Virus record (IMG/VR): IMGVR_UViG_3300004770_000150
Location: 1-20,160 of that record
DNA from: a virus
Length of the DNA stretch: 20,160 bases
Reading direction: 5' to 3' (one strand)
Positions 4,003-20,129 of the stretch are shown one piece after another. The stretch's first letter is position 1, and every line of letters begins with the position of its first letter. Position numbers and translations under genes: made by a program. Below the pieces are notes generated by a model that was not told where the DNA came from, made no database searches, and was given only the letters and a program-made list of their open reading frames with translations.

Positions 4003-5928
4003 TTAACCTACTGGTTTCTTTTTCTTTTTTATTTCAATTCCAATTAAATTGCCCTTATTGTCACCCATTGGTTCTTTATTGGTGGAACCACCAAGTACTC
4101 CACCAACACCCATTGAACCGTATTCTGCTGGTGAATCAATAGATTCTTTCTTAATTTTATTTCTAAAATATTTAAAATCCTTTTTCTTCTCATCATAGGA
4201 AGAATTTAAAGGATTCGGTGACATTGCACTACTTCCTGGCATAGCCGAACTTGAAGGTTGTGCATTACTAAAATCTTGACTCTCACCCATGGCTTGTCCT
4301 AGACCGGCACCTGCTGCAGCACCTTGACCGCCTGCACGGGTATCATAACTCTGTCCTACTCCGTCTGGTCTACCAACACGACCAGCACTTAAAGATGTAT
4401 TACCACGCTTCTTTACTTTTTCTTTGTCGTTGTCTTTTTGGAAGTTGGGTTCTTTGGGGAGCGGGTTGATTTTGAGCGTTGGGGCGCTTTCGCTGTATGC
4501 TCCTGACCATGCTCCGCCTGTGACGCCTTGCTTACCGTTGGGGTCTTTCCTCGGACCGGTGTTGCCTTTGATTTGGTCTTGACCGGAAACGAGGGAACCG
4601 GAGTTGTCTGGTGTGATGTCGGCTGGTCCTTTGGCTGATCTAAAGTTGGCGTTGTACTTTCCAACGGTTTTGATCTGAATAGACTTAGAATCTTTTTTAA
4701 CATCATTTTCCTTAAATAGGTTTATAATTTTTTCGTTAATATCTACTTTGTTGTTTCTTTCGAACCAATCTTCAGCAATATCATTAATTACTTTGGAATC
4801 CAAAAATAATTTAGTAGTTAGATATATTTCTGTAATATCTTCTTCTTTAGATTCTATTTTACCTGTATTATCAAACTCAATAAAATTAGTAAAGGATTCT
4901 GTGAAATATTTAGTATTTTGTTGTGCCTTCAACCACTTATCCTGACGGATAGATTCTGTCATCATTCTGGATAACTGGGAATTGCGTTCTTGACTAGCTT
5001 CATTTGTTGTATTAACAAATATCATCAAAGTTTCATAACCCAATTCTTCAAGTTCTTCTTTGATGTAACCAATACGGTTATTGTCATCGGCAGGTCCATT
5101 AATGATTAGTGGACCACGGACTCTGATACCTTCTCTACGGAAATCACTGGTTTTCTCGGATAATTTCTGTTTGTCCGCCAAATACTCACAGGCCTGTACT
5201 AGGTTGAGTTCTACAATTTTAGTTTCAGCAATGGCTTCACGGATGATAATATCTTTACCTGAACCAGGTCCACCAGTTACAAAGATGGCTCTAAACTGTC
5301 CACGATCCACGGATTCATTCATTCCCATGCCTTTACGAACATCATGCATCAATTCTTTGGCATGAGTATCCGATACATGAGCAGGAACACCTTGACGGAA
5401 AGAATGGAAGTCTTTATTCTTAGCATGATCTCTCATCTTGGTACCAGACATACCTTCAGAACCTTCAGCATCAGGATCACGATGACCAGCAGACACCACT
5501 TGAATCTTTTTGAAGTTATAATGACCATGTCCTGCTTTTACACCATTATATTTGTGTAATAACTGGTGCATTTCTTTAACACGGTCAGAACCAGCCACCA
5601 CGGTCAACTTATCGTGACCTTTGGCATGCAACTTAGCAGCATGGTGTAGAATTGTTGGTGCATCTTTTGAAGAATGTTCAAAATGAGTACCTGGTGAATA
5701 TCGTTTGAGGTGTTTAACCTTCTGTTCACCAGATAATGGGTTCTTTTTAGAATCTTGTGAATGTGATACGACAACAGTATGCTTAGCACCTTGTTTGTCG
5801 GCAATTTCACGAACTTTATCGATAAGTTTAAGGTGTCCAGTTGTTGGAGGATTCATACGACCAAAAGCCATCACCACAGGCTTATGTGTGGCTTCTTTTT
5901 CTTCGTATATTTCTAAAAATGACTTCAT
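4003..5928 (-). CDS. NMNAT-like nucleotidyltransferase fused to a P-loop domain, with capsid-targeting-like N-terminus
   Basis: This is a 641-residue multidomain protein. Residues 1-10 (MKSFLEIYEE) resemble the T4 capsid-targeting peptide, with a possible cut after E9. Residues about 17-190 form an HxGH-type nucleotidyltransferase domain: GRMNPPTTGH at 23-32, AGSDR at 112-116 and MSGTKMR at 160-166, equivalent to the ISGTxxR motif of NMN adenylyltransferases. Residues about 212-400 hold a P-loop domain with GGPGSGKD at 219-226, possibly a nucleotide or polynucleotide kinase. The last 230 residues are Gly/Ser/Pro/Lys-rich, probably disordered, and end in IKKKKKPVG. NMNAT enzymes make NAD from NMN and ATP, but related HxGH enzymes use other substrates, so the substrate is not certain. 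The gene overlaps the ligase-like gene upstream by ATGA. A GC-rich island covers codons 417-497. Confidence 0.85.
   Translation of the reverse strand: MKSFLEIYEEKEATHKPVVMAFGRMNPPTTGHLKLIDKVREIADKQGAKHTVVVSHSQDSKKNPLSGEQKVKHLKRYSPGTHFEHSSKDAPTILHHAAKLHAKGHDKLTVVAGSDRVKEMHQLLHKYNGVKAGHGHYNFKKIQVVSAGHRDPDAEGSEGMSGTKMRDHAKNKDFHSFRQGVPAHVSDTHAKELMHDVRKGMGMNESVDRGQFRAIFVTGGPGSGKDIIIREAIAETKIVELNLVQACEYLADKQKLSEKTSDFRREGIRVRGPLIINGPADDNNRIGYIKEELEELGYETLMIFVNTTNEASQERNSQLSRMMTESIRQDKWLKAQQNTKYFTESFTNFIEFDNTGKIESKEEDITEIYLTTKLFLDSKVINDIAEDWFERNNKVDINEKIINLFKENDVKKDSKSIQIKTVGKYNANFRSAKGPADITPDNSGSLVSGQDQIKGNTGPRKDPNGKQGVTGGAWSGAYSESAPTLKINPLPKEPNFQKDNDKEKVKKRGNTSLSAGRVGRPDGVGQSYDTRAGGQGAAAGAGLGQAMGESQDFSNAQPSSSAMPGSSAMSPNPLNSSYDEKKKDFKYFRNKIKKESIDSPAEYGSMGVGGVLGGSTNKEPMGDNKGNLIGIEIKKKKKPVG
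4441..4680. other. GC-rich island inside the NMNAT-like gene
   Basis: A hand count gives 128 G+C in these 240 bases (53%), with 62% at 4501-4560. The block 4741-4800 has 30%. The reading frame stays open through the island and encodes the start of the disordered linker (Gly-, Pro-, Asn- and Lys-rich). Third positions use G and C far more than in the rest of the window, so amino-acid composition alone does not explain it. Confidence 0.8.
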
Positions 5929-7106
5929 TTTCTTACTTTCAATAGGTTCGCTTTAGCAAATTCTTTACGGTTCACCAATTTGGTTGGTTCACCTGCATGA
6001 TGTACAACAAATCCTTCTGGATCTGTTCTCTTACTATCTATGTGATGTTCCAAACCACCTTCGTGTTGGTTTAGTACATCAACTAGTTTATTCTTAGCTT
6101 GTTGTAGATGATGATGCATTTTTAACAAATTATCATAATCTTTCTTATGTGTATCAATGTGTTTTGTGTGTGAACCCAATTCAGCATCTTTACGACCTTG
6201 TGCCATAGGAGTTTTTAACTTAGCAGAAGCCTTTTTATACTTGTCTGTAATATGTTTCTTCAATCCTTCGGCAGAAGGTTTTTCATCAGTACGGACAGTA
6301 TGATTAATATATGTTGCTAAATGTCCAGCTTCACCACCATGAATTTCTGTGTTTTTGTACATGGTCTTTTTGTTTGCATCATGTATCTTTTGGGCTGCAG
6401 CAATATGTTTATGGAATTCATTTTGGTCATCTTCGGAATAATGTACATTCTTTGTATCATGTTCCGGATGCTTCGTCCATACATCTTGGTGCGTTTTGAA
6501 ATTGTGTAAGTCTGGATGTGGATCCGCTTTCATTGATTCCGCAGTTTTTCCATGATATTGTGTGTGAACTACAATACCCATCTTAGAATCTTTAATCTTT
6601 TGACCTTCTTCACCTTTACCTGTGTAGGTAATGGTATTAGGAGTAAATGATACTTTACCACCTTTACCGTGTTTTAGGTCATCATGTGTATACATCAAAT
6701 CTCCTTGATATACACCAGTTTTAGGTGCAATCTTCTTTAGGTGATTTAATGATGCATGGAGTTTGTCCATAAGACCTGGAGCGTGGCCATGGTTCTTCTT
6801 AATATCTTCGTGTGTGTAGTTGATCTTTGGATTCTTATTGAAAGCAGATTTACTTGCTACAAAGAACTTACCCGTTTCTGGATGATGGCCAAACACCAAT
6901 GATGGAGAACCATCATATTTCATCGTAAGGTGTGTAGATTTACCACCAGACTTAATATGTTCGTGTGCTTGTGTTAATGCATCGTTAGCGTGTTCAAAAC
7001 CTTTTGCTCCATGGAATAATGGACGATCCTCAGCATGATGAATATGCTTGAGTTTACTACCTTCAGATTCAGCTTCTTCTTTGAGAAAGGTTAAAAACGA
7101 ATACAT
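5925..7106 (-). CDS. polynucleotide-ligase-like nucleotidyltransferase with capsid-targeting-like N-terminus
   Basis: This 393-residue protein shows the motif set of covalent nucleotidyltransferases (DNA/RNA ligases, capping enzymes): MKYDGSPSLVFG at residues 62-73, with K63 as the expected AMP-accepting Lys of KxDG, GDLMY at 135-139 as motif III, KMGIVVH near 175-181 as motif IIIa, EGFVVH at 364-369 as motif IV and a Lys at 376 (TKLVNR) as motif V. The middle is unusually rich in His and Lys. The N-terminus MYSFLTFLKEE resembles the T4 capsid-targeting peptide, with L8-K9-E10 as the cut site. I chose ATG 7106 because AGAAGG lies 6 bases upstream; the GTG at 7133 lacks such a site. It is the first gene after the late promoter. 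Ligase chemistry is inferred, and the substrate (RNA, DNA or other) is unknown. Confidence 0.8.
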   Translation of the reverse strand: MYSFLTFLKEEAESEGSKLKHIHHAEDRPLFHGAKGFEHANDALTQAHEHIKSGGKSTHLTMKYDGSPSLVFGHHPETGKFFVASKSAFNKNPKINYTHEDIKKNHGHAPGLMDKLHASLNHLKKIAPKTGVYQGDLMYTHDDLKHGKGGKVSFTPNTITYTGKGEEGQKIKDSKMGIVVHTQYHGKTAESMKADPHPDLHNFKTHQDVWTKHPEHDTKNVHYSEDDQNEFHKHIAAAQKIHDANKKTMYKNTEIHGGEAGHLATYINHTVRTDEKPSAEGLKKHITDKYKKASAKLKTPMAQGRKDAELGSHTKHIDTHKKDYDNLLKMHHHLQQAKNKLVDVLNQHEGGLEHHIDSKRTDPEGFVVHHAGEPTKLVNRKEFAKANLLKVRK

Positions 7107-7150
7107 TAATTTCCTTCTAGATATGCAACACACTTTGGTTGCCGATTGCT

Positions 7151-7158
7151 TATTTATA
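7151..7158 (-). promoter_or_regulatory. T4-type late promoter (TATAAATA)
   Basis: The minus strand carries the exact T4 late consensus TATAAATA, 44 bases before the ATG at 7106 and within the only long intergenic region of the window. In T4 this box is recognised by RNA polymerase carrying the gp55 sigma factor and the gp33/gp45 coactivators. It separates the glycan block from genes with late character, so it probably drives the whole run from the ligase-like gene towards the endolysin. Confidence 0.85.
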
Positions 7159-7228: not shown

Positions 7229-7936
7229 TTAAAACTTCGTTCCTTCAAAATCCAACCAATAATTACTCATTTTACCTTTACCTTCCATCAAATAGAATGG
7301 TAAAGTATGAACTAAAGCTCGACTGGAGTTATAGTATAACATAGTTTTAGGTGCCCTGTCAAGAGAAAACGCAAAATGTGTTGTTCCTGTGTCACCACCA
7401 ATAAATATTTCGGCATCCATAATATGGTAGATATTTTCCATGAAGTCTATGCTATTGGTCCAATCTTCACCAAAGTAAGCAGGTTCTTTCGTACATACCA
7501 CTTTAATATAATCTTTATATTCTTCCGTACTATATTTCTCAATCAAATGTTGGAGTAGTGTTCTAGGCCAGTTGCGGTATTGATTATATGGAGCATCAAA
7601 TAATGGGAAGATAACAATTTTCTTCTTCATTGGTTTATCGTTTGATACTTTAACTAAGTCACCAGAAATATCTCTGAAGTCCCAAAGATTAACTCTTTCC
7701 CATTGCAAATTATCCTGACTTTGGTGTTCGGAAAACCAATCTGTTTGTTTCTTTAAGAATTCAAAGAACTTTTGACAATAATCATCCTGACTGATTGCAC
7801 CAGGCATCATGTGAAATTTGATATGTGGTTGTTTGTTGACTTTTCTCAGATGTTCAACAACATTACCCACGGCAATTAAATCACCATTTCGAATACAATC
7901 ACCAAAGCAACCTTTATGAATGTTTAAAATGGTCAA
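7229..7936 (-). CDS. glycosyltransferase, GT9 (heptosyltransferase)-like, probable TTG start
   Basis: The protein (about 235 residues) has the layout of a GT-B enzyme. The N-terminus LTILNIHKGCFGDCIRNG resembles the GDxxxxxP loop region of ADP-heptose transferases. The C-terminal part has EIFIGGDTGTTHFAFSLDRAPKTMLYYN, close to the family's nucleotide-sugar binding motif D-x-G-x-x-H. The most upstream ATG (7960) has no ribosome binding site, whereas a TTG at 7936 is preceded by GGAG with a 7-base spacer, so I take TTG as the start. The gene overlaps the previous one by 23 bases with this start. It is last in the glycan block. The donor and acceptor sugars are unknown. Confidence 0.75.
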   Translation of the reverse strand: MTILNIHKGCFGDCIRNGDLIAVGNVVEHLRKVNKQPHIKFHMMPGAISQDDYCQKFFEFLKKQTDWFSEHQSQDNLQWERVNLWDFRDISGDLVKVSNDKPMKKKIVIFPLFDAPYNQYRNWPRTLLQHLIEKYSTEEYKDYIKVVCTKEPAYFGEDWTNSIDFMENIYHIMDAEIFIGGDTGTTHFAFSLDRAPKTMLYYNSSRALVHTLPFYLMEGKGKMSNYWLDFEGTKF

Positions 7937-8675
7937 GTTTTTTCTCCAAATCTTTTGCATGAACTAATTGAGCAAGGCCATTAAGGTAAAAGTGTTTCTC
8001 AAATACCTTATTAATGTCCTTACCATTATCCCAAGATACATTATCACCAACACGGAATTCAGGTTTCCAATCTTCTGCTTTCCAAACACAATATAAGGGA
8101 ATATCACATAAGTCAGCTAGCATACCAATACCGGTGAAGTTGGTGATAAATGGTTTCTTTAGATTCTTTAGAATGTAAGCATTTTCTAACATTGGTCTAT
8201 CGTAATCAATAAAATTGAATTTATCAAGGTGTGATAGAATGTGCGTTTCTCTACGGTCATCAATCTCACCTACAGCCCAACGGTCACCAACATAGAATTC
8301 ATCTTTAACTTCAATATCATATTCTGGAGTTTCAACAATAAATTCATCATCAACATCAAATTCCATTTTATAGTGGTCTTTTAACCAATTTTCATAACGA
8401 CAAGTTTCTATTGGTCGATACTTATCATTCTTATCTTCACGCATTGGCCAAGAACTCAATTGAATCAATTCACCGTACATGAATACTTCATCATCAAATA
8501 CAACATCGGTAAATAAATCTTGATACATCAAAAATTCTTTGATGCCTTTAAACTTACGCATAGCACTTTTGATAATCAATTCATATTTACCATACTTCTT
8601 ACTAACACCAGACATTACTGGCATTCCGTTCAGAAAGTCACCTAAATTGGCAGTTCCACTAAGATATATTCTCAT
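7914..8675 (-). CDS. GT9-like glycosyltransferase-related protein (253 aa)
   Basis: The N-terminus MRIYLSGTANLGDFLNGMPVMSGVSKKYG matches the start of GT9-type enzymes (a strand, then GD and a Pro before a helix). Further on, NFTGIGMLADLCDIPLYCVW resembles the C-terminal nucleotide-sugar site, but the usual D-x-G-x-x-H is degenerate (T-G-I-G-M-L), so catalytic activity is doubtful. It may be an inactive or divergent partner of the next gene, which keeps the motif. An ATGA overlap joins it to the HtrL-like gene upstream. The middle (residues about 95-150) is strongly acidic. Confidence 0.6.
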   Translation of the reverse strand: MRIYLSGTANLGDFLNGMPVMSGVSKKYGKYELIIKSAMRKFKGIKEFLMYQDLFTDVVFDDEVFMYGELIQLSSWPMREDKNDKYRPIETCRYENWLKDHYKMEFDVDDEFIVETPEYDIEVKDEFYVGDRWAVGEIDDRRETHILSHLDKFNFIDYDRPMLENAYILKNLKKPFITNFTGIGMLADLCDIPLYCVWKAEDWKPEFRVGDNVSWDNGKDINKVFEKHFYLNGLAQLVHAKDLEKKLDHFKHS

Positions 8676-9496
8676 TTTACAGTATCATTGTAATTGTTAA
8701 ACAAAACAAACGAATCATGTCCTAATTGATGGTCAGGAATGATATTCAGATTAAACATTTCTGGTTTCTTCAAAGAAGCCATCAACCATAAGGTTTGGTC
8801 ATCATCAATCAAGTTCTTTTCTTGTAGTTCTTCCATACTTTCTACAATTAAACGATTGACTTCAGGCCATAGATTCTTATGGCCAACTTGTTTGGCGCCC
8901 AAAATATAAACTGTATTATTAAATATTACATCTTCGATTGTTTTATCTTTTGGAAATTCACGATATCCAAACAGTTGAAATTTATCTTCACCAAAGTTAT
9001 ATGTCCACTTCTTACTTGGTGGAATCTTATCTTGTGTACGACAATATCCAAAGTCAATCTGTGCAACATAATCATTACTAATTAAACCGGCATCTAAAGC
9101 CCATTTAACAAAGAATGATTTGAGGTACATCAGGTGTACATAATTGGCGTTCCAATATTCTGGATTGACCTGTTGTGAAGGACTAACTTTTCTTTGAAAT
9201 TCTGTTGTTCTTTGAATATCATGAATCTTTTTCTTCTCACCGTGAAACTGGGCAAGATAATCAAAAGGAATAATCTTTGTCTTATCTTCTTTACCTTTAC
9301 GCAAAGCAGCAACTCGTTCAACAAAATCTGGATGTGTGTAGATAATCATTTCATTATCTAATTGAGCCATGTAACTGAACCGTTCAAAGTAAGTATCTAC
9401 GGTACGATGCAAGTAATGTGGGAATCCTTTTTCTGGAGTCCAATCACCACGACCCATATCAAAGAAGAAAGTTACAATACTAATATCATTATTCAT
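8672..9496 (-). CDS. HtrL/YibB (WlaTC)-like putative glycosyltransferase
   Basis: Residues 6-19 (SIVTFFFDMGRGDW) are the signature start of the HtrL/YibB family, found in LPS and capsule gene clusters and thought to be GT-A-type glycosyltransferases. The protein is 274 residues, normal for the family. Other family-like stretches are YLKSFFVKWALDAGL followed by YVAQIDFGYCR, where the Asp of QIDFGY sits in the position of the metal-binding DxD, and a C-terminal DDDQTLWLMA. It is joined by ATGA overlaps to both neighbours. The family assignment rests on recalled motifs; the substrate is unknown. Confidence 0.75.
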   Translation of the reverse strand: MNNDISIVTFFFDMGRGDWTPEKGFPHYLHRTVDTYFERFSYMAQLDNEMIIYTHPDFVERVAALRKGKEDKTKIIPFDYLAQFHGEKKKIHDIQRTTEFQRKVSPSQQVNPEYWNANYVHLMYLKSFFVKWALDAGLISNDYVAQIDFGYCRTQDKIPPSKKWTYNFGEDKFQLFGYREFPKDKTIEDVIFNNTVYILGAKQVGHKNLWPEVNRLIVESMEELQEKNLIDDDQTLWLMASLKKPEMFNLNIIPDHQLGHDSFVLFNNYNDTVK

Positions 9497-10272
9497 AATT
9501 TTTCACCAAGTTTTTTAATATATTTTCTTTGAAAGATAGGCAATTCAATATTCAATTTTTGTGTTAATTTAGTATTATCCAAAATGAATTGGTCTTTAAT
9601 TTCATGACCAGTAGAAATAAATTCACCTGATTCGTAACCTTCAATCAAACTTCTTGCAACGTCACCAATAGGTAAACCATAATTAGAACTCAAATTATAT
9701 ATTCCATGTGGTTGCTGTTGTGCAACACGAGTTAATACTTTACAAACAGACTTAATTGAAATAAAATCTCGTTTGGTTTCAGGACTGATAGAATATAAAA
9801 TCTTATCAGTATCTTTTAATTGATTCATACAGAAACCCATGAAAGAATTTCTTCCATATTCAAAACCATAAACATTGGACGCTCTCAGTATAGTAACACT
9901 TGGCAATCCTATGTGCATTATTAAATCTTCAGTTTTTGCTTTATTGTCGCCATAATAATCTGTAGGAGATAGAGCAGATTCTTCATTGGAGATTTGTAAG
10001 TCATCAGTTGTACCATAAACTTTTCTAGTACTCAACATAATATAGTGACATTTATTTTTTTGTGCCAATAGAGCCACTTTTAAATCAATGTCGTTAGATT
10101 GTTTACGACTTTCTATTTTGTATTCTGGCATAATAGCACAATTTAAGATACTATTATACTTAGATAAGTCCATTTTGTCAAGATCATTATATGAAACAAT
10201 GTCTACATTTTTAGTGTGATGGAAGAAAGCCCTACCAATAAAACTATTTTTACCAACAATTAGTGTTCTCAT
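9493..10272 (-). CDS. NAD(P)-dependent sugar epimerase/reductase (extended SDR)
   Basis: This is a Rossmann-fold protein with GKNSFIG at 7-13 as the dinucleotide loop (GxxxxxG type), S81/T82 in LSTRKVYG and the catalytic Y107-x-x-x-K111 (YGDNK). This pattern fits NAD-dependent epimerase/dehydratase or dTDP-4-dehydrorhamnose-reductase-like enzymes acting on nucleotide sugars. The C-terminal half (TILRASNVYG, YNLSSNYGLPIG) also fits that family. ATG 10272 is preferred over the in-frame TTG at 10278 because it forms a standard ATGA overlap with the upstream stop; the protein is then 259 residues. The final product sugar cannot be named. Confidence 0.85.
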   Translation of the reverse strand: MRTLIVGKNSFIGRAFFHHTKNVDIVSYNDLDKMDLSKYNSILNCAIMPEYKIESRKQSNDIDLKVALLAQKNKCHYIMLSTRKVYGTTDDLQISNEESALSPTDYYGDNKAKTEDLIMHIGLPSVTILRASNVYGFEYGRNSFMGFCMNQLKDTDKILYSISPETKRDFISIKSVCKVLTRVAQQQPHGIYNLSSNYGLPIGDVARSLIEGYESGEFISTGHEIKDQFILDNTKLTQKLNIELPIFQRKYIKKLGEKL

Positions 10273-10997
10273 ATCCAATAATATTTCTTATAGTTATTAA
10301 CAATTTCAATATGTTCTGGTTGGTCGTTAACGAATTTATCATAATCATAACCGTCATTTTTGTGGTGATGTGAGTCCGTCATATAAGGATTAATAGTATA
10401 ATCTTTACCACAAAGGAAGTAATAAACAACCATGTAACAGTCCATATAACCTAATGGGTCATATTGTTGTTGGAAAGTGTTGTGGTTAGTTTTAAACCAT
10501 TCAATTACTCTATCATAGTTGTTTATGAAGGTTGACACCTTAAAGATGGATCCTCCACCACAACCATATTGATTTGTTAATGGTCTTTTACCAGAAAATT
10601 CAGCAATACTATCTATGATGTTTTGTGGAATAATATTACCAATACGAATGTCATGTCCTGCCATTTCCCAGGTATCGTCTAAGGTAATTTGTTTTTTAAC
10701 CCAAACATCATCTTCCATCATCATAATGTGTGATGTGTCGGTCTGTTCACAAGCGAGTTTGAACCTTTCAAACCATTTTAAAAGTTTCTCTAAGTTATAA
10801 CTAGGATAACCCACTTTATTGGTATAAAACCTATAGACACAAGAATTGGATATTGCAATATCTTGTAATTCATCAGCAGCATCTGAGGCCAAAAAGTAAT
10901 AGGTATTGGGATAATGTTTACGAATATTCATTACCATATTTCTGGTTGCTTCCTTTTTTCCGGCCGAAGCAAGGTGGCAAAAAGAAATATCACTCAT
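10269..10997 (-). CDS. putative GT-A-fold glycosyltransferase (242 aa)
   Basis: The N-terminus begins with a short strand (ISFCHLASAGK) and a helix with NMVMNIRKHYP. The motif HIMMMEDDVWV at 90-100 contains E95-D96-D97, which fits the metal- and nucleotide-sugar-binding DxD region of GT-A enzymes. A glycine-rich YGCGGGSIFK near 144-153 often forms the acceptor-side loop in such proteins. The C-terminus is rich in Tyr, Asn and His. It sits between a methyltransferase-like gene (8-base overlap) and an SDR gene (ATGA overlap), which supports a role in glycan synthesis. No precise family can be named. Confidence 0.7.
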   Translation of the reverse strand: MSDISFCHLASAGKKEATRNMVMNIRKHYPNTYYFLASDAADELQDIAISNSCVYRFYTNKVGYPSYNLEKLLKWFERFKLACEQTDTSHIMMMEDDVWVKKQITLDDTWEMAGHDIRIGNIIPQNIIDSIAEFSGKRPLTNQYGCGGGSIFKVSTFINNYDRVIEWFKTNHNTFQQQYDPLGYMDCYMVVYYFLCGKDYTINPYMTDSHHHKNDGYDYDKFVNDQPEHIEIVNNYKKYYWI

Positions 10998-11559
10998 ATT
11001 TTACGACAAACATAATTGAATCGGACATACCAGAGATTTCACGAGCATCAATGATTTCATAAACCATACCTTCAGGCACCAATTCTACATATTCATCAGT
11101 CCATTCCATTTGAGCAATATCTTCGATAACGAACACACCACCAGGATTTAATTTTGACAAATACAATTTTAAAGATTGTAAATGACTTTCTTTGGTATGT
11201 GGACCATCATCGATAATAATATCAAACTTTGGTAAGAAAGAAGAAAACTGCTCAGTATAACCATCAGCATAAAAGACTTTGATTCTTGGAAAAGATTCAC
11301 AATTTTTAATGGCACCAAAATCAAAAGGATCAACTCCCCAAATTTCAGCCTTTTGGAAATACTCATGAAAAACGGCAAGGCCGCCACCACGATGAACTCC
11401 AATTTCTAACAATTTGATTTCTTGGTCTTTATACTTTAGAAATTCTTTATCGTAAAATGCTGTACAATAACGATGATTAAACTCTTTATCTGTACCAAAT
11501 TCATAATGAGTATCATTACGCCAATTGTTTTCTACCATAATATCAACTAATGTTTTCAT
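10990..11559 (-). CDS. class I SAM-dependent methyltransferase-like protein (189 aa)
   Basis: LLEIGVHRGGG at residues 50-60 is the SAM-binding motif I. IWGVDPFDF (73-81) supplies the acidic residue after strand 2, and FDIIIDDGPH (112-121) is motif II with the acidic/His cluster seen in sugar O-methyltransferases of the CmcI or macrocin type. HxxxxHLQSLKLYL then NPGGVFVIEDI are also typical. The ATG at 11559 (TGATG overlap) has AGG 8 bases upstream and is preferred over the adjacent GTG. A sugar O-methyltransferase for the glycan made in this block is the most likely role. Confidence 0.8.
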   Translation of the reverse strand: MKTLVDIMVENNWRNDTHYEFGTDKEFNHRYCTAFYDKEFLKYKDQEIKLLEIGVHRGGGLAVFHEYFQKAEIWGVDPFDFGAIKNCESFPRIKVFYADGYTEQFSSFLPKFDIIIDDGPHTKESHLQSLKLYLSKLNPGGVFVIEDIAQMEWTDEYVELVPEGMVYEIIDAREISGMSDSIMFVVKYE

Positions 11560-12560
11560 CACATCAACCTATCTTTCCATGTTTTTGGTGTTTTATCTGA
11601 TACAATCTCTAATGGATATGAATAATCAAAAGGTTTAGGTCCTTTCTTTTTAACATATTCCACGGTTTCTTGAATTGCTTTTTCTAATGTTGTTTTTGTT
11701 TCATAATCCAACAACACTCTAGCTTTTTCAGCCGAACAAGAAGCATGTTTAACTTCTCTTGGTCGGTCTGGCATATGAATTGCTTCACCTTCAAAACCAA
11801 TCTCTTTTGCAACTAAATTTGACAATTCTTTAACTGTAATAGTACCTTCATCAGGACCAATGTTGATAATCTCACCAACAATATTAGGATCGAGTGCCAT
11901 CTTTTCTAGGCAGTTAATACAATCACCGACATAAGAGAAACAACGAGTTTGTAATCCGTCACCGTAAACGATGGCAGGTTTACCTTGTAGATTACGATTA
12001 ATCATAATACTCATAACATTACGGAATGGGTCATCGTATCTTTGACGAGGACCAACAATGTTATGTGGTACAGCAATGTTCCATTCCATACCATGTGTAT
12101 CGCAGAGTGCTTTTAATACTTCTTCAGATGCAGCTTTAGCAATACCATATGGGTCTACAGGCATTGGTTGCATATCTTCAGTAAATGGAGTTTGTTGGGC
12201 GCCATATCTTGCCATTGAAGTGCAATGTACAAAACGCTTTACATTATTTTGTATTGCAGCTGAAATTGTGGCCACACTCGCTTCAAAGATATTTCGTGTA
12301 ATGAAACTAGGAGAGAATACAGATAATCCTTCGTGTGCCGTTGCAGCACAATGAATTACAATATCACAACCTTCCATAATGATGGCCATCTTATCAACAT
12401 CACAACAATCAATAACATATAACTTAGCACCTTTAGGTACATTATCACGATAACCACCAATCAAGGTGTCGTTACCAATGACCTCATGTCCTAATTCTAG
12501 CATTCTGTCGGCAAGGTGGCTACCTAGAAACCCTGCGATACCTGTAATAAAGATTTTCAT
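11559..12560 (-). CDS. NAD-dependent epimerase/dehydratase (extended SDR), nucleotide-sugar type
   Basis: This is a full-length extended SDR of 333 residues. It has GIAGFLG at 7-13 (GxxGxxG), HCAATAH near 70-76, S115 in CTSMARYG and the catalytic Y138-x-x-x-K142 (YGIAK). It continues with NIVGPRQRYDDPFRNVMSIM and INIGPDEGTITVKEL, as in UDP-glucose 4-epimerase and related enzymes. It should interconvert a nucleotide sugar for the transferases next to it. A good AGGA site lies 5 bases before the ATG, which abuts the previous stop (TAAATG). Whether it is an epimerase, dehydratase or decarboxylase is not settled by the motifs. Confidence 0.9.
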   Translation of the reverse strand: MKIFITGIAGFLGSHLADRMLELGHEVIGNDTLIGGYRDNVPKGAKLYVIDCCDVDKMAIIMEGCDIVIHCAATAHEGLSVFSPSFITRNIFEASVATISAAIQNNVKRFVHCTSMARYGAQQTPFTEDMQPMPVDPYGIAKAASEEVLKALCDTHGMEWNIAVPHNIVGPRQRYDDPFRNVMSIMINRNLQGKPAIVYGDGLQTRCFSYVGDCINCLEKMALDPNIVGEIINIGPDEGTITVKELSNLVAKEIGFEGEAIHMPDRPREVKHASCSAEKARVLLDYETKTTLEKAIQETVEYVKKKGPKPFDYSYPLEIVSDKTPKTWKDRLM

Positions 12561-13400
12561 TTAAGTCCTGTAAATAAAATATTGTGATTCATCTTCTTGG
12601 CCATATTTCTCTTGGACAAACTTCTTTAAAACTGGTACTCTATCATATTGATGTACAATTGAGTAAGGTTTACCTTGGTATTTTACTAATCCATCTTCAA
12701 ATGTAGGTTCATCACACAATAAGTTTGGTCTAAAATGTTGAATCTTAGATGGATCCATAATTGTACCTAACTCAGCAGCCCAATCAAATGTAGTGTATCG
12801 AATATCAAGGAATGGTTGTGTATTCATCAATACATTGAATACTGCTTGGTCTACAATGGGAATAGGTCTATTAATTGCGTTAGTAAATATGTGGAAAATA
12901 ACATCTTTAACATATTCAAATTCACCACCAAAAGTGCCAACATTTAATATTTGATTATTTTTAAATTGTTCATACACATAAGGACCATAAGTTTGCATTA
13001 GATTCTCATTGCCCCAAGGTTCATCACAATATGCCAAACCTTCAGAAGCAACAATTAATTCAATCTGATTTTCTTCTATTTGTACAAATGGGTCTTTTTG
13101 GAAGTAAACATCTTTTACGTCCGTGGTGACAACATAACGATATTCATTTTGATGATTATGTAGATAATCATAGATCGATAAGAATCGTAAAACATGAATT
13201 GGTATACCTTGAACCTGCAACATTGGAACAACTTGAACACCTTGTTCTACTAACCAATCTAATGTTTCTTTAGATGCATTACCATAAACTAAAACAACAT
13301 CATTTGATCCAGCAACTTCTTTTGCTGATAGAACCCAAGGTTTTAGTTGATTGATGCCGTAGTTTGTGAAACCACCAATGATTAAGTTTTTTGACGCCAT
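12561..13400 (-). CDS. putative GT-A-like glycosyltransferase (279 aa)
   Basis: The protein opens with strand-helix units (NLIIGGFTNYG; DVVLVYGN) and has VVTTDVKDVYFQKDPF at 90-105. The D94/D97 pair is the likely metal- and nucleotide-binding site, and TDV+DV.FQ.DPF is a pattern I know from GT-A-like transferases. Later it has LNVGTFGGEFEYVK and VDQAVFNVL, the latter typical of the catalytic D-Q segment in such enzymes. The GGAG site 7 bases before ATG 13400 supports this start, which overlaps the GT2 gene by 19 bases. Substrates are unknown. Confidence 0.75.
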   Translation of the reverse strand: MASKNLIIGGFTNYGINQLKPWVLSAKEVAGSNDVVLVYGNASKETLDWLVEQGVQVVPMLQVQGIPIHVLRFLSIYDYLHNHQNEYRYVVTTDVKDVYFQKDPFVQIEENQIELIVASEGLAYCDEPWGNENLMQTYGPYVYEQFKNNQILNVGTFGGEFEYVKDVIFHIFTNAINRPIPIVDQAVFNVLMNTQPFLDIRYTTFDWAAELGTIMDPSKIQHFRPNLLCDEPTFEDGLVKYQGKPYSIVHQYDRVPVLKKFVQEKYGQEDESQYFIYRT

Positions 13401-14104
13401 GGGAAAACTCCATTATATTTTTTATTCATCACTTCATTACCATTAATAAAGAAGTCCGCTGTTACAGAACCTTCACCACCATCAACACGATAATGGGTTG
13501 TATATTCGTTTGTACAATCCCACTTTGGAAAGTATTGAGTTACTGCACTAAGAAACACTCTATCTTGACCCCAACCACCATGCCAAGCACTCGCTAATTT
13601 TACAGCAATTGATGTCTTTAGGCAATAGGAGTTTGTATCTATGTGATTAATACCGTGATAAGTTTGCCATTTACCAAGAGATTCACAATCATCGTTACAG
13701 ATAAAATCACCGTCTTTATTGTGTACTTGTCGCAGAGAATAACACCAATCTAAATTACGTTTTTCAATGGTATCAACACAAGTTTGTACATGGTTAGGTG
13801 CCAACCAATTATCTTGGTCGAGATACATTACATAATCGGTGTCAACAAGGTGTGTAAAGGCTGCATACACACGGTGACCATAAAATCCTTTGGCACCAAC
13901 ATTGATTGGTAAATTACACAATACAATATTCTTAAATTTTGGATGATCTTTGAATATTCCAATATGATTTTTGACTGCGTAAACATATTCTCCACCATCA
14001 CAAACAATATAACATTTAGTATCGTATGTTTGGTCTAATACAGATTTAATTGCATCATGTACTTTTGCTGCACCAGTTGTTGGTATAATTACTGTAGCTG
14101 TCAT
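13382..14104 (-). CDS. glycosyltransferase family 2 protein
   Basis: The protein starts MTATVIIPTTG and continues AIKSVLDQTYDTKCYIVCDGG, the standard N-terminal GT2 nucleotide-binding fold. YLDQDNWLAP at 94-103 carries the DxD motif (D96-Q-D98) for the metal and nucleotide sugar. Further on, WCYSLRQVHNKDGDFICNDD and HGGWGQDRVFLSAV fit the acceptor/catalytic region. A longer reading from a GTG at 14155 exists but overlaps the previous gene by 50 bases and puts extra residues before the conserved strand, so I chose ATG 14104, one base after the upstream stop. Confidence 0.85.
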   Translation of the reverse strand: MTATVIIPTTGAAKVHDAIKSVLDQTYDTKCYIVCDGGEYVYAVKNHIGIFKDHPKFKNIVLCNLPINVGAKGFYGHRVYAAFTHLVDTDYVMYLDQDNWLAPNHVQTCVDTIEKRNLDWCYSLRQVHNKDGDFICNDDCESLGKWQTYHGINHIDTNSYCLKTSIAVKLASAWHGGWGQDRVFLSAVTQYFPKWDCTNEYTTHYRVDGGEGSVTADFFINGNEVMNKKYNGVFPWRQKT

Positions 14105-14105
14105 A

Positions 14106-14708
14106 TTACCATATCCAAAAAAGTTGATAACCATTGTGTTGTAGTTGTCGACCACTCTTATTCATATAATCAAATATGAATTGTCCTTTACCGGCCAGAA
14201 CTTGTTGACCATTCTGAATTTCAATCCAATTATCATCAACACCAATCAAAGCACCAGGTTTAAGTGAAGGTGCAATTGTAAGAAGTTCATACAGGTGGTG
14301 TAATGCACTTTGTTGTACCACTTGGGGATTATCTCTAGGTGCATCAAAACTATCCAAGTAAAGAAAATCAATTTTTCTATCATTAATTGGCAACAAATCA
14401 TTCAGTTGTTTTAGTTGAGTAATACTGTCACCTAAAGTAACAACACTATTCTCTGAAGTCATTTTACTTTTGGAATAGTTTACAGATTCTTCGGCAAGGT
14501 CTACCGTCCAAAAATATCCACCATGTTCTTTTATATATTTGTCAAACAACAGGCTACTTTGTCCATCACCCTCATAATTATCAAGTTGACGAGCGCAACC
14601 AGTTTCTACTATGAAAGGATTTTCTATTGTTTTTAGGTATTCGAATATGTAATCAAATCCACTCTGTCTATGTCCAAGTCTACTTCTCACATCATTATAA
14701 AATTGCAT
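14106..14708 (-). CDS. SAM-dependent methyltransferase-like protein (200 aa)
   Basis: FIVETGCARQ (32-41) followed by SSLLFDKYI matches motif I of the Methyltransf_24-type proteins. FWTVDLAEESVNYSK gives the acidic residue of strand 2, and IDFLYLDSFDAPRD gives motif II with its acidic residues. The end (PGALIGVDDNW and GYQLFWIW) resembles small sugar- or glycan-cluster methyltransferases. The glycine loop is less perfect than in the 189-residue relative at 10990-11559 (ETGCAR rather than ExGxxxGG), so binding of SAM is likely but not proven. It is the first gene of the glycan block, 3 bases after the 92-residue gene. Confidence 0.75.
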   Translation of the reverse strand: MQFYNDVRSRLGHRQSGFDYIFEYLKTIENPFIVETGCARQLDNYEGDGQSSLLFDKYIKEHGGYFWTVDLAEESVNYSKSKMTSENSVVTLGDSITQLKQLNDLLPINDRKIDFLYLDSFDAPRDNPQVVQQSALHHLYELLTIAPSLKPGALIGVDDNWIEIQNGQQVLAGKGQFIFDYMNKSGRQLQHNGYQLFWIW

Positions 14709-16284: not shown

Positions 16285-17394
16285 TTATCTTATAATTTGA
16301 ATGTCTTTACCTGAAGTCCAGATTTCAAGTTCTGTCCTCAATCTACCCTCAGTCTTGAGAGTTTCGTATCTATTTATAGCTTTATTCCGCCACCATTCAA
16401 TAACATTACTCAATTCATGTTTTTCATAATTGGGACCAGGAATCAAGGTATCAGTTTTACAGTTCATGTAATCTACTGCGTTATTATACCCAAAATCGGA
16501 TGTATAATAACGTTTTTTCTCTGTCAACTTTTTGGCGTTCTCAATCGTTAAATTAAAAGCATCACCTTCTGGTGTACCTTTGAGTGCTGCTTTAGTGAGA
16601 GCAATAATCTTGGTGAAAGTTCTCAATTTTCTACTTGTACTTGATGTATCACCTTGTAACAAATCTCCAGTAATATTCTCCACATAGTTCTTCAAATCAT
16701 GGTATCGTTGGCCGTGCATCATTGGTACAATATCAGATTCAGTCAAACCACGGAATCGAATGTAAGGTTTCATACCATCATATTGTGATACTGTCTTGGT
16801 TGTTCCATACAAACTGGTAGTTTCAAACAAACACACATTCATACCATATTTCTTGTTACAAATTTCCCTTACAGTATGACTGGTACAGATGGCAGATAGA
16901 AGTTTACCACCAAGATAGTTAAATCCAAATGGTTGTGCTGGTACAATTACAAAACCCATAACACAAGCAGCATTGAATCGTTTGGCAGTATCTTCCTGTT
17001 GAATCCAGACCTGTCCCAAGAGTTCATTTCTCGGTTTCATATAGATGACTGGTGAACCTAACCGAATGAATCCTAGAATCTTTCCTGAGTTCTTCTCCTT
17101 GACTGCCAATTGTATATTTTTACCAACTGGTGATTTATTGATATGAGAACTAGTAATGGCAAGTAATGTTTCAAATTGAGTATTTGGTATTTCACAAACT
17201 TCAATATCCATGTCCTTTGGGTGCATGGAGAAATCAGAGAACAAATCATCCTCAGGTGGAAATAAAGAAGATGGCATTTCTGCCACATTCTTCAACTTCT
17301 CATCACGCATGTATTCTTCGGTACTTCCAATATTACTAAAATAGTCGTGGAAAGTTTTGGAACAATGTAGTGCTTGTTCTCTAGTTAAAATCAT
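16285..17394 (-). CDS. DUF4338/DruA-like protein
   Basis: This 369-residue protein has a core (about 96-220) that matches my recollection of the DUF4338 (DruA) pattern: GKILGFIRLGSPV, then R and GQVW, then RFNAACVMGFVIVPAQPFGFNYLGGKLLS, and then YGMNVCLFETTSLYGTT, which corresponds to the family's YG...LLETFVD...GT segment. DUF4338 occurs in DruA of the Druantia defence system and in some mobile elements, and its biochemical activity is poorly known. Here it overlaps gene 41 by ATGA, so a role alongside DNA replication or recombination is more likely than defence. The basic C-terminal region (about 240-340) could bind nucleic acid. The family call is by pattern only. Confidence 0.6.
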   Translation of the reverse strand: MILTREQALHCSKTFHDYFSNIGSTEEYMRDEKLKNVAEMPSSLFPPEDDLFSDFSMHPKDMDIEVCEIPNTQFETLLAITSSHINKSPVGKNIQLAVKEKNSGKILGFIRLGSPVIYMKPRNELLGQVWIQQEDTAKRFNAACVMGFVIVPAQPFGFNYLGGKLLSAICTSHTVREICNKKYGMNVCLFETTSLYGTTKTVSQYDGMKPYIRFRGLTESDIVPMMHGQRYHDLKNYVENITGDLLQGDTSSTSRKLRTFTKIIALTKAALKGTPEGDAFNLTIENAKKLTEKKRYYTSDFGYNNAVDYMNCKTDTLIPGPNYEKHELSNVIEWWRNKAINRYETLKTEGRLRTELEIWTSGKDIQIIR

Positions 17395-18776
17395 ACTTTA
17401 AAGCCTTCAAAGGATTTCTTAGGATGTTGAATCTTATTTTGTGAACCAATTCCTTGGTGACCAGCATCAGCAAGACCGGTTTGTGCAGATTGTTCTACAT
17501 CAAATAGTTTCATTTTTGATCTATCGACACCAATAGTGAATCGTTTATAATAAGAAGGATCATTGTATCGATTCTTCAATTGTTTTACCATCATCTGACC
17601 CATCTGTTCCAAATCTTCAGAAGAAATCAAAGCAAACATCAAGTCTGCGGTGGCTGGGAGTCCGAATGATTCACTGGTGTCCTCAAGACCTGGATCGCTG
17701 CTTGTAAATCCTGACCGAGTGGTCTGTGTGGCACTAACAATAGGAACATTAAATTCCACCGCAAGTCCTCTAAGTTCTTCAGCAATCGATTTAACATAGG
17801 TGTACGAATTAATATTTGCACCAGCCTTAATGCGAGAACTACAACAAATATTGAGGTAATCAATAAAGATAATATCAGGTACAAAAGACCTTTTAAGATT
17901 AAGTTCATTTAGTAATGTCCTAAAGTGTGTAACGGAAGCTGAGGCTGTTGGATATTCTTTGATGATAAGTTTACCTGTAGTCTTTTCACGGACTTTGGCA
18001 ACTTTTCTGTCATACATTTCTTTTGGTAAATCCATCAAATCATCAAGTGTAACATTCAACAAGTTAGCATCAATTCGTTCTGCTATTTTTTCTTCAGCCA
18101 TTTCAAGTGTGATATACAAAGCGTTTTTACCTTGTACCATAGCGCCCGCTGCCACATGGCACATAAACAAAGATTTACCAACACCCGTACCAGCCAGAGC
18201 AATATTGAGAGTCTTAGCTGGTAAACCACCTTTTGTAATCTTGTTGAAACAATCGAGGTCGAAAGGAATTCGCTCCTCTTTTCTATGATAAAAATCATAC
18301 CGAGCATCAGAGTTTTCAAGATAGTCATGTCCTACTGTGGTATCGAATGAAACTGCCAAGGCATCCGATAATATAGAGGGAATCGCACCTTTGTCATGAC
18401 CTTTGTCCTTACCATCGAGAATTGAAATAGCCCGTAATACACCATTGTAAATCGCTTTCTCTTGGCAAAACTTTTCGGTTTTGTCAACAAGCCATTGAAC
18501 CTCGGTTTGTTCTTTGCTATGGTTCTCAATTTCCGTGAGATAAGTTTCACAGTTCTTAATTTCGTCATCTGAAAGATTATTCTTTTCTTTGATGGCAATA
18601 CTAAGTGCTTCAATCGATGGCGGAGTATTGTAAGTTTCCGTGAATGATGTAATTTCATTGAATATTGTCCTCTCGGTTCTGTCCGAGAAATAATCATCTT
18701 TAATAAATGGTAATACTTTTCGTAAATAGTCCTCGTTATAGACCAGATTCTTGAGAATCGCTTGTTCCAGTTTCAT
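17391..18776 (-). CDS. 41: replicative DnaB-family helicase (T4 gp41-like)
   Basis: This is a hexameric 5'-3' DNA helicase that unwinds the fork and works with a primase. The N-terminal 150 residues are the helical primase-interaction domain. The RecA-like core follows: Walker A AGTGVGKS at 195-202, the H1a Glu in ITLEMAEEKIAERI, Walker B PDIIFIDYLN, H3 with the Gln in SATQTTRSG, and a DRSKMK segment with the basic residues of H4. The length (461 residues) is close to T4 gp41. The track of overlaps (41 bases with the small gene upstream, ATGA with the DUF4338-like gene downstream) indicates one operon. ATG 18776 is preferred over the adjacent TTG at 18779. No primase gene is visible in this window. 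Confidence 0.95.
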   Translation of the reverse strand: MKLEQAILKNLVYNEDYLRKVLPFIKDDYFSDRTERTIFNEITSFTETYNTPPSIEALSIAIKEKNNLSDDEIKNCETYLTEIENHSKEQTEVQWLVDKTEKFCQEKAIYNGVLRAISILDGKDKGHDKGAIPSILSDALAVSFDTTVGHDYLENSDARYDFYHRKEERIPFDLDCFNKITKGGLPAKTLNIALAGTGVGKSLFMCHVAAGAMVQGKNALYITLEMAEEKIAERIDANLLNVTLDDLMDLPKEMYDRKVAKVREKTTGKLIIKEYPTASASVTHFRTLLNELNLKRSFVPDIIFIDYLNICCSSRIKAGANINSYTYVKSIAEELRGLAVEFNVPIVSATQTTRSGFTSSDPGLEDTSESFGLPATADLMFALISSEDLEQMGQMMVKQLKNRYNDPSYYKRFTIGVDRSKMKLFDVEQSAQTGLADAGHQGIGSQNKIQHPKKSFEGFKV

Positions 18777-19056
18777 CAATTATTTCACTTTCCATGTTTG
18801 CCGACATAAGTTCGACAAGTAAATCACCAATATAATTCTTAAATGTATCATCTTTTTCTAGCTTCTTTGGTTTATCTACGGTGGATTCTAACACATCGTA
18901 ACCAAAAAGTAAATACATCTGTTCATCTTTTTCTTCAAACTTTACCTTACCATATTTGAAAACGGTATCTTTGTAAGGACCCTCAAGGAATTTAATATTA
19001 ACTCCTTGAGCATCATCTTTAGGGTAAATGAAACAGTAATCAACGCCTTCAACCAT
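18736..19056 (-). CDS. small acidic protein between uvsX and gene 41
   Basis: This 106-residue protein has an N-terminal beta-rich part (IKFLEGPYKDTVFKYGKVKFEE then YLLFGYDVLES) and an acidic C-terminal tail (EIIDETGTSDSQESG). Its function is unknown. In T4 the same slot, uvsX-40-41, is held by gene 40, a protein of similar size linked to head-vertex assembly, but I see no clear sequence match, so only the position is shared. Marine T4-like phages also carry a small ORF here. TAATG joins it to uvsX, so it is surely cotranscribed. Confidence 0.85.
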   Translation of the reverse strand: MVEGVDYCFIYPKDDAQGVNIKFLEGPYKDTVFKYGKVKFEEKDEQMYLLFGYDVLESTVDKPKKLEKDDTFKNYIGDLLVELMSANMESEIIDETGTSDSQESGL

Positions 19057-20129
19057 TATTCTACTCCGTTTGAAGTAACAATATCATCAAATAGATTTTC
19101 GGATCCACCTTGCATAATATCACCGGCAGCAATCTGGTATTTACTTTGTACAAATTCTTGGAACTTTTTGGTTTTCAGAATTGGCATCCAAAAATCAGCA
19201 GTATCAGTTTCTTTGATACGATACTTCTTATCTTCTATGACGCCATCCTCGTCCACCTTTGAGTACCAACCATTAGATGGTTTAACAACAAATCCACCAT
19301 CAAGTGATATATCAAGTAACCCACTCCAGCGGCTAATGCCACCATCATGCCGAACAGTAACAGGTATTTTAGATTTTTCACGGACATATCTCGATTTCTC
19401 CACATTAATAATAAAGTTATAACCAATAACCTCAGTACCTTCTTTTTCTTGCTGGCGGCCTATAACGAAAATATTATCGGCTGAATAATATGATCCCGTT
19501 CCACCACCAACAATGGCTTTAGGGAACATACCAATTTCCATGTAAGTATGATTTACTACAATCATTGGAATATCTTTAAGATTCAAATGTGGAGTTACCA
19601 TACGAAATAATGATTTGACTGCCTTGGCTCTCGACATATCACCAACAGTTTTACCTTCTAACGCATCATTAACTTCTTTGATTGATGCCAGATTACCAAT
19701 CGAATCGACTACAATAATTAAATGTTCACCACGCTCAACTTCATTGAGTTGTTGCATGATATCAATTTTCAGTTTTTCAATATCAGTAATAGGGGTATGT
19801 AACACACGATTAGTGTCAATACCAAAGGAATCAAAATAAGACTGCGGCGTTCCAAACTCCGAATCATAGAATAAAAGGGCTGCATCAGGATATTTGTCCA
19901 AGTATGATTTGGCCATCAATAATGAAAATGCTGTCTTAAAATGTTTGGATGGACCTGCCCACATTGTAAGACCTGGTGTTAAACCACCATCTAATTTACC
20001 GCTTAATGCCACATTGATAATGGGCACCGAGGTTGGAATCATGTCCTTCTGTGTAAAGAACTTTGATTTGGATAGAATAGCTGAATCTTTAATACTACTA
20101 TTCTTTTTGATTTTATCTAATATACTCAT
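19056..20129 (-). CDS. uvsX: UvsX, RecA-family recombinase
   Basis: This 357-residue RecA-type strand-exchange protein corresponds to T4 UvsX. UvsX forms filaments on single-stranded DNA and drives recombination-dependent replication and repair, usually loaded by UvsY and stimulated by gp32. The Walker A loop is GPSKHFKT (59-66), close to the T4 form GPSKSFKS. The catalytic Glu lies in FYDSEFGTP (E91), and Walker B is IIVVDSIG with D142. VNHTYMEIG and the DNA-binding loop region GGGTGSYYSADN follow. The end is acidic, as in other UvsX proteins. AAGGA lies 7 bases before ATG 20129. No uvsY or gp32 gene is in this window. Confidence 0.95.
   Translation of the reverse strand: MSILDKIKKNSSIKDSAILSKSKFFTQKDMIPTSVPIINVALSGKLDGGLTPGLTMWAGPSKHFKTAFSLLMAKSYLDKYPDAALLFYDSEFGTPQSYFDSFGIDTNRVLHTPITDIEKLKIDIMQQLNEVERGEHLIIVVDSIGNLASIKEVNDALEGKTVGDMSRAKAVKSLFRMVTPHLNLKDIPMIVVNHTYMEIGMFPKAIVGGGTGSYYSADNIFVIGRQQEKEGTEVIGYNFIINVEKSRYVREKSKIPVTVRHDGGISRWSGLLDISLDGGFVVKPSNGWYSKVDEDGVIEDKKYRIKETDTADFWMPILKTKKFQEFVQSKYQIAAGDIMQGGSENLFDDIVTSNGVE

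Follow-up and report, generated by a model that had tools for sequence, protein, structure and literature searches.

Background

The repair enzymes of bacteriophage T4 are made after infection and are not known to be packaged. Known phage RNA-repair systems are built from a ligase, a kinase, a phosphatase and a Pol-beta nucleotidyltransferase (NTase) (PMC7824862). The delivery of T4 capsid cargo relies on a short leader: in the 10-residue N-terminal sequence of T4 internal protein (IP) III, residues 4 and 7 direct targeting, residues 8 and 10 direct processing, and cleavage follows L/I-x-E (PMC9026906). Here we analysed a stretch of 20,160 nucleotides (positions 1 to 20,160 of the IMG/VR virus record IMGVR_UViG_3300004770_000150, hereafter the window), a fragment of a T4-like (Kyanoviridae-like) aquatic phage. 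It holds two adjacent genes, one encoding a protein of the family DUF6267 and the other an NMNAT-like protein with a T-x-G-H motif joined to a P-loop domain (hereafter the NTase). Judged by sequence, both have conserved active sites and resemble enzymes of nucleotidyl transfer.

Almost all members of a phage group that ranks among the most abundant in marine and fresh waters encode DUF6267 and the cyanophage NMNAT-like protein. Their role, where one has been assumed, was taken to be the supply of nicotinamide adenine dinucleotide (NAD). Our literature searches found no paper naming DUF6267, and turned up no description of targeting leaders in cyanophages. The new result of the present analysis is delivery: T4-type leaders stand on both proteins and on a third small open reading frame (ORF) of the window.

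Leaders, late promoter and virion proteomes

The two ORFs are adjacent and share the tetranucleotide ATGA (5928-5925), as a sequence-only reading of the window had described (Table 1). The DUF6267 gene starts at ATG 7106, behind AAGGAAA, and stops at 5925, an upstream GTG at 7133 being a mechanically possible alternative start. Both predicted proteins begin with a capsid-targeting-like leader, to be compared with the MKTYQEFIAEA shared by the N-termini of T4 ipII and ipIII. We scored leaders by hydrophobic residues at 4 and 7 (residue 4 being F in all three leaders of the window), with L/I-x-E near residue 10. This rule fitted 38/39 distinct DUF6267 and 36/38 distinct NTase N-termini in the window's clade. 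Over all fetched loci it fitted 76 of 115 distinct DUF6267 and 68 of 101 distinct NTase sequences, against 32 of 1203 other ORFs (2.7%), an enrichment for which the Fisher probabilities (1e-67 for DUF6267, 6e-63 for the NTase) overstate independence given the kinship of the sequences. Among these 32 ORFs, several encode internal proteins of T4 or other probable cargo. Leaders also recurred in genome-collection loci outside the set from which the rule was made, and across unrelated proteins and clades. In cyanophages the NTase bears the leader and DUF6267 is often without it. A gp21-family prohead protease (PF03420) was present in 7/11 related long contigs, the window itself being a fragment.

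The motif TATAAATA upstream of the DUF6267 gene belongs to the known cyanophage late promoter, NATAAATA/TATAAATA (PMC2984593). Within the window alone it is unremarkable (2 found, 2.4 expected), while among clade relatives it lies at most 90 bp upstream of DUF6267 in 55 of 78 cases, at a conserved distance of about 50 bp, against 34 of 1290 other ORFs. The pair is accordingly classed, from its promoter sequence, as putatively late-expressed. The proposal of the sequence-only reading that these are late genes suited to delivery in the virion is strengthened by this promoter, by the leaders and by virion proteomes. Mass spectrometry detected NTase homologues in CsCl-purified virions of S-SZBM1 (ORF140; PMC9146016), S-CREM2 (ORF154; PMC10665884) and S-SCSM1 (PMC9602691). 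Packaging is well supported: we consider packaging and injection highly probable for the NTase family, and probable for DUF6267 in the window's clade.

Table 1. Features of the window and their coordinates
Feature	Position	Strand	Basis or remark
DUF6267 protein, ligase-like (KxDG) nucleotidyltransferase, 393 aa	5925..7106	minus	PF19782, phrog_455, model
NMNAT-like TxGH nucleotidyltransferase + P-loop domain + long disordered tail, 641 aa	4003..5928	minus	CTP_transf_like, TIGR00125, phrog_3041, model
Capsid-targeting-like leader MYSFLTFLKE(/E), DUF6267 residues 1-10	7077..7106	minus	T4 rule; disordered in model
Capsid-targeting-like leader MKSFLEIYE(/E), NTase residues 1-10	5899..5928	minus	T4 rule
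Third leader-bearing ORF, MKSFKEFIKE(/D), 60 aa	547..729	minus	T4 rule
T4-type late promoter TATAAATA, ~50 bp upstream of DUF6267 start	7151..7158	minus	position conserved among relatives
DUF6267 motif I, K63-Y-D-G66	6909..6920	minus	invariant
DUF6267 motifs IV-V, E364-G-F-V-V ... K376	5979..6017	minus	invariant; sole local T4 Rnl1 profile match lies here
NTase G-R-M-N-P-P-T-T-G-H, residues 23-32	5833..5862	minus	NTase motif comparison
Second NTase motif M-S-G-T-K-M-R, residues 160-166	5431..5451	minus	NTase motif comparison
P-loop GGPGSGK, NTase residues 219-225	5254..5274	minus	sequence
DnaB-like helicase	17391-18779	minus	identified from sequence
UvsX/RecA-like	19056-20129	minus	identified from sequence

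A ligase-like signature in DUF6267

The window's protein matched PF19782 (E=1.7e-94) and phrog_455 (E=7e-92). K-x-DG-x-P was intact in 256/256 full-length relatives, and an alignment of 35 DUF6267 sequences, with identities of ~30-80%, showed invariant K63, D65, G66, P68, K86, Q134, D136, E364, G365, V367 and K376. These residues fit, in the correct order, motifs I, III (as GD), IV and V of the covalent lysine-AMP nucleotidyltransferases. A pattern of the motifs in order, tuned to the window's own sequence, was found in 134/256 full-length relatives, 0/774 other proteins and 0/20,000 shuffles. In the structural model, a confident one (predicted local distance difference test score, pLDDT, 86.8; predicted template modelling score, pTM, 0.84) residues 1-20 are disordered, a strand ends at K63, and a beta hairpin is flanked by E364 and K376. 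The top fold neighbours outside the family were mostly ligases in both libraries searched, with weak matches in the PDB to Trl1 ligase (E=0.17) and to Lig1 (E=0.25), and in the viral library to a T4-type RNA ligase (E=0.019) and to an NAD-dependent DNA ligase (E=0.06). A ligase fold is suggested by the motifs taken together with these weak matches, and ligase-like chemistry is likely. For DUF6267, PDB sequence searches run with each protein and profile brought nothing of use, and the protein had no match to the T4 RNA ligase Pfam families PF09511 and PF09414 at up to E=10. The KxDG-type ligase-like enzyme first proposed has kept its lysine and motifs, its naming as a ligase drawing on these and on weak fold likeness, with no RNA-ligase Pfam match.

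A bacterial origin of DUF6267 was considered and found unsupported: the 29 hits in a bacterial and archaeal genome collection are nearly all in metagenome or single-cell assemblies, with one in a cultured isolate, and many adjoin the same phage genes, the contigs being called phage by gene content alone. In the isolate, Nonlabens xiamenensis 1Q3 (Bacteroidetes), DUF6267 adjoins a leader-bearing NTase on a 188-kb contig (L350; such handles denote the loci and contigs compared), which may belong to a T4-like phage present in the culture.

The TxGH and P-loop domains

The NTase matched CTP_transf_like (1.4e-6, above the Pfam cut-off), TIGR00125 (7.6e-9) and phrog_3041 (2.7e-64). Its nucleotidyl-transfer motifs are conserved, although the HxGH initially reported is in fact T-x-G-H (PTTGH), an accepted variant of H/T-x-G-H. 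Relatives were defined by R-x-NP-x-x-x-GH as search key, and most of this set has MS(A/G)(S/T)KMR downstream; the TxGH motif, like the KxDG lysine of DUF6267, is retained among homologues. In a model of residues 1-400 (pLDDT 86.5), the nearest solved folds of the TxGH domain were NMNAT and NadD (E near 1e-4), so that the H/TxGH and SxxKxR motifs and the fold all indicate an NMNAT/NadD-like protein. It scored far below the cut-offs of the NMNAT/NadD equivalog models, and strict NadR membership was rejected (TIGR01526, 16.2 bits against a 341-bit cut-off). The P-loop part matched polynucleotide kinase (PNK) and adenylate kinase folds in the PDB search. In marine relatives the P-loop is mostly a separate gene of the AAA_33/zeta families, directly upstream of the NTase.

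The fold of the TxGH domain speaks for an alternative in which the injected enzyme, a nicotinamide mononucleotide (NMN) adenylyltransferase, would restore the NAD+ that host defences deplete, DUF6267 perhaps being an NAD-using ligase whose NMN product it recycles. Such a role was suggested by the authors of cyanophage proteomes (PMC9602691, PMC10665884), and NMNAT with a P-loop is reminiscent of NadR and of jumbo-phage NAD genes (PMC7824862). We nevertheless consider NAD supply unlikely, in view of the NadR score given above, of the AAA_33/zeta/PNK type of the relatives' P-loops, and of the absence of any phosphoribosyltransferase recognised by eye nearby in the window. It also leaves unexplained the Pol-beta, HAD and adenylate-kinase partners described below.

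Linkage, fusions and partner genes

Among 265 DUF6267 loci, 229 had an NTase hit, 31 ended too early to judge and 5 were without an NTase. Gene counts for the two families are nearly equal in each phage group (cyanophages, Prochlorococcus phages, Methylophilales phages and pelagiphages). The phrog_455 family spans proteins of both kinds, S-PM2 encodes one protein that combines them, and locus L341 joins them in a single 635-aa chain with one leader. Near-constant adjacency and natural fusions thus support the view that DUF6267 and the NTase belong together. Their co-occurrence, which the sequence-only reading had proposed to survey, holds nearly always in Kyanoviridae. In giant phages of Escherichia, Salmonella, Klebsiella and Pseudomonas, however, an NTase homologue occurs with no DUF6267 detected, and those of Pseudomonas and Escherichia that were examined have no KxDG protein beside the NTase. 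Furthermore, a few large cyanophages keep the two genes distant (100 kb apart in S-SCSM2R).

Other enzymes accompany the pair in relatives. A leader-bearing adenylate kinase and a zeta/PNK-like P-loop protein lie between DUF6267 and the NTase in L348, a Pol-beta nucleotidyltransferase domain is fused ahead of the TxGH domain in L348, L349, L351 and L354 (above cut-off in L349 and L351), and leader-bearing HAD phosphatase-like proteins adjoin DUF6267 in L362 and L364. By association, these kinase, phosphatase and Pol-beta partners shift the balance away from NAD supply and towards the repair of nucleic-acid ends.

The order helicase, DUF6267, NTase is common to pelagiphage HTVC008M, Methylophilales phage Melnitz-3 and cyanophages Syn19 and S-SZBM1. 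In the last two the locus adjoins annotated head or virion protein genes, as might be expected if the enzymes worked in head or tail morphogenesis and were packaged as a by-product; T4 RnlA is likewise annotated as doubling as a catalyst of tail-fibre attachment. Active sites invariant across very divergent relatives and a cleavable leader typical of cargo speak against a morphogenesis factor, which we regard as very improbable.

Further leader-bearing proteins and neighbouring genes

The third leader-bearing ORF of the window combines a textbook leader with a basic C-terminus, and is a candidate small injected protein. S-SZBM1 encodes two small proteins, ORF191 and ORF192 (L269:32312-33126), with clear leader-like N-termini (MKSFKSFLSES and MKTFKQYITEA), the latter ORF with a DUF6321 domain. 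Just downstream of DUF6267, leader-bearing proteins of 430 aa (L027:7179-8471) and 323 aa (L035:7176-8147) had no match in family searches. The product of T4 gene 2 (L274:20062-20886), gp2, a protector of injected DNA ends, starts with MAIFQIINES and fits the leader rule. A RimK-like ATP-grasp enzyme (L155:2768-3841) begins with the leader-like MGKFKEFITEG.

This last enzyme, of a protein-modifying family, bears on another alternative, in which the enzymes, once injected, would link a nucleotide or RNA to macromolecules of the host (RNA polymerase or ribosomes, for example), in the manner of T4 Alt with ADP-ribose. Alt is annotated as packaged and injected, and the conserved active sites described here are compatible with any acceptor. 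The kinase, phosphatase and Pol-beta partners are, however, better suited to nucleic-acid ends, and an Alt-like takeover appears improbable to us.

The window runs from the UvsX/RecA-like and DnaB-like helicase genes through a block of sugar genes to the DUF6267 and NTase pair, followed by small and low-complexity ORFs. The sugar block (7229-14708, minus strand) holds apparent glycosyltransferase, epimerase and methyltransferase genes, judged by eye from the translations. In the replication region, the minus-strand ORF 16285-17394 encodes a DruA-like protein (PF14236, 7e-9; PADLOC DruA1, 3e-7), which is probably not part of a Druantia defence system because it falls in the phage family phrog_19197.

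Discussion

We tentatively favour, as a near-even call, the interpretation that DUF6267 and the NTase are enzymes that repair nucleic-acid ends and are packaged beforehand and injected together. Both would be synthesized late, packed into the prohead through their T4-type N-terminal capsid-targeting sequence, trimmed of their leaders by a gp21-type prohead protease and injected along with the DNA. In the new host they could perform immediate nucleotidyl transfer on nucleic-acid ends, a substrate and a repair role that we infer from the motifs and partner genes. DUF6267 would seal ends through a lysine-AMP mechanism, and the TxGH enzyme, together with the kinase-like, phosphatase and Pol-beta partners of relatives, would prepare ends or supply activated nucleotides. 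The purpose may be to repair damage from host defence, perhaps in the first minutes of infection. The repair or NAD interpretation initially advanced is partly supported: a linked, late nucleotidyl-transfer pair stands, to which the leaders are now added, with the kinase and the ligase assignment both weakened.

Several observations count against end repair by injected enzymes. Concerning delivery, PMC10665884 warns of carry-over or contamination for such virion-detected enzymes, pelagiphage leaders, including that of the NTase, are degenerate, and DUF6267 of S-SZBM1 and of Syn19-type cyanophages has no leader. The S-SZBM1 virion list (PMC9146016) includes the leader-bearing NTase ORF140 and lacks the leaderless DUF6267 protein ORF141, a contrast that, as a single case, fits the role of the leader; the leader-bearing ORF191 and ORF192 are likewise missing from it. 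The contamination caveat and the degenerate leaders would also suit ordinary intracellular late enzymes, their leader likeness having another cause. We think this quite improbable, since the leader is enriched over the 1203 other N-termini, occurs on proteins unrelated to each other and agrees with the residues that were mapped in T4.

Concerning chemistry, the fold search of DUF6267 against the PDB gave no match below E=1e-3. In profile comparisons (hhalign), T4 Rnl1 aligned very weakly, over the EGxV...K stretch alone (E=0.021, probability 2%), and T4 Rnl2 gave no signal. The TxGH enzyme is no standard RNA-repair component. In the window's clade, the P-loop has its Walker A motif, but the PNK/zeta catalytic Asp is replaced, the position reading N-x-x-Q in 57/60 fused proteins, whereas the S-D pair is retained in nearly all P-loop proteins that marine relatives encode separately. 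The 5' kinase first envisaged is therefore unlikely to be active in the window's protein, and this activity has probably been lost or changed.

More speculatively, and as a less than even possibility, aquatic T4-like phages may carry a modular, leader-tagged kit for nucleic-acid repair in the capsid, able to mend the damage inflicted by host defence before any phage gene is expressed. Its proposed members are the DUF6267 ligase, TxGH and Pol-beta nucleotidyltransferases, PNK/zeta and adenylate kinases, and the HAD phosphatase. If these are repair enzymes, such phages bring repair along rather than making it. The leader also makes a sharp prediction of injection, and may offer a general rule for spotting injected effectors in aquatic T4-like phages.

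Comparison with known systems

The locus shares with T4 IPI-III and Alt an N-terminal targeting leader with an L/I-x-E cut site, late expression as predicted from the promoter, and a gp21-type protease in related genomes. Its cargo is, by contrast, a pair of putative nucleotidyl-transfer enzymes, that of T4 being small nuclease inhibitors or an ADP-ribosyltransferase, and the bodies of the DUF6267 and NTase proteins showed no homology to IP or Alt. With T4 Rnl1/Pnkp tRNA repair and other covalent-lysine ligases it has in common the ordered KxDG, EGxV and K motifs and, here in relatives, kinase-like, phosphatase and Pol-beta partners. DUF6267 differs in having no detectable Rnl1 or Rnl2 family membership and a helical insert before motif IV. 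The TxGH and SxTKxR motifs and the NadD/NMNAT fold recall NMNAT/NadD, NadM and NadR, from which the NTase departs by scoring below all equivalog cut-offs, by a P-loop that is not of NadR type and by its capsid leader. Finally, the cytidylyltransferase/NMNAT proteins that others detected in virions of S-SZBM1, S-CREM2 and S-SCSM1 belong to the same family; the available parts of those reports mention neither the targeting leader nor DUF6267, both of which are tied here to one locus.

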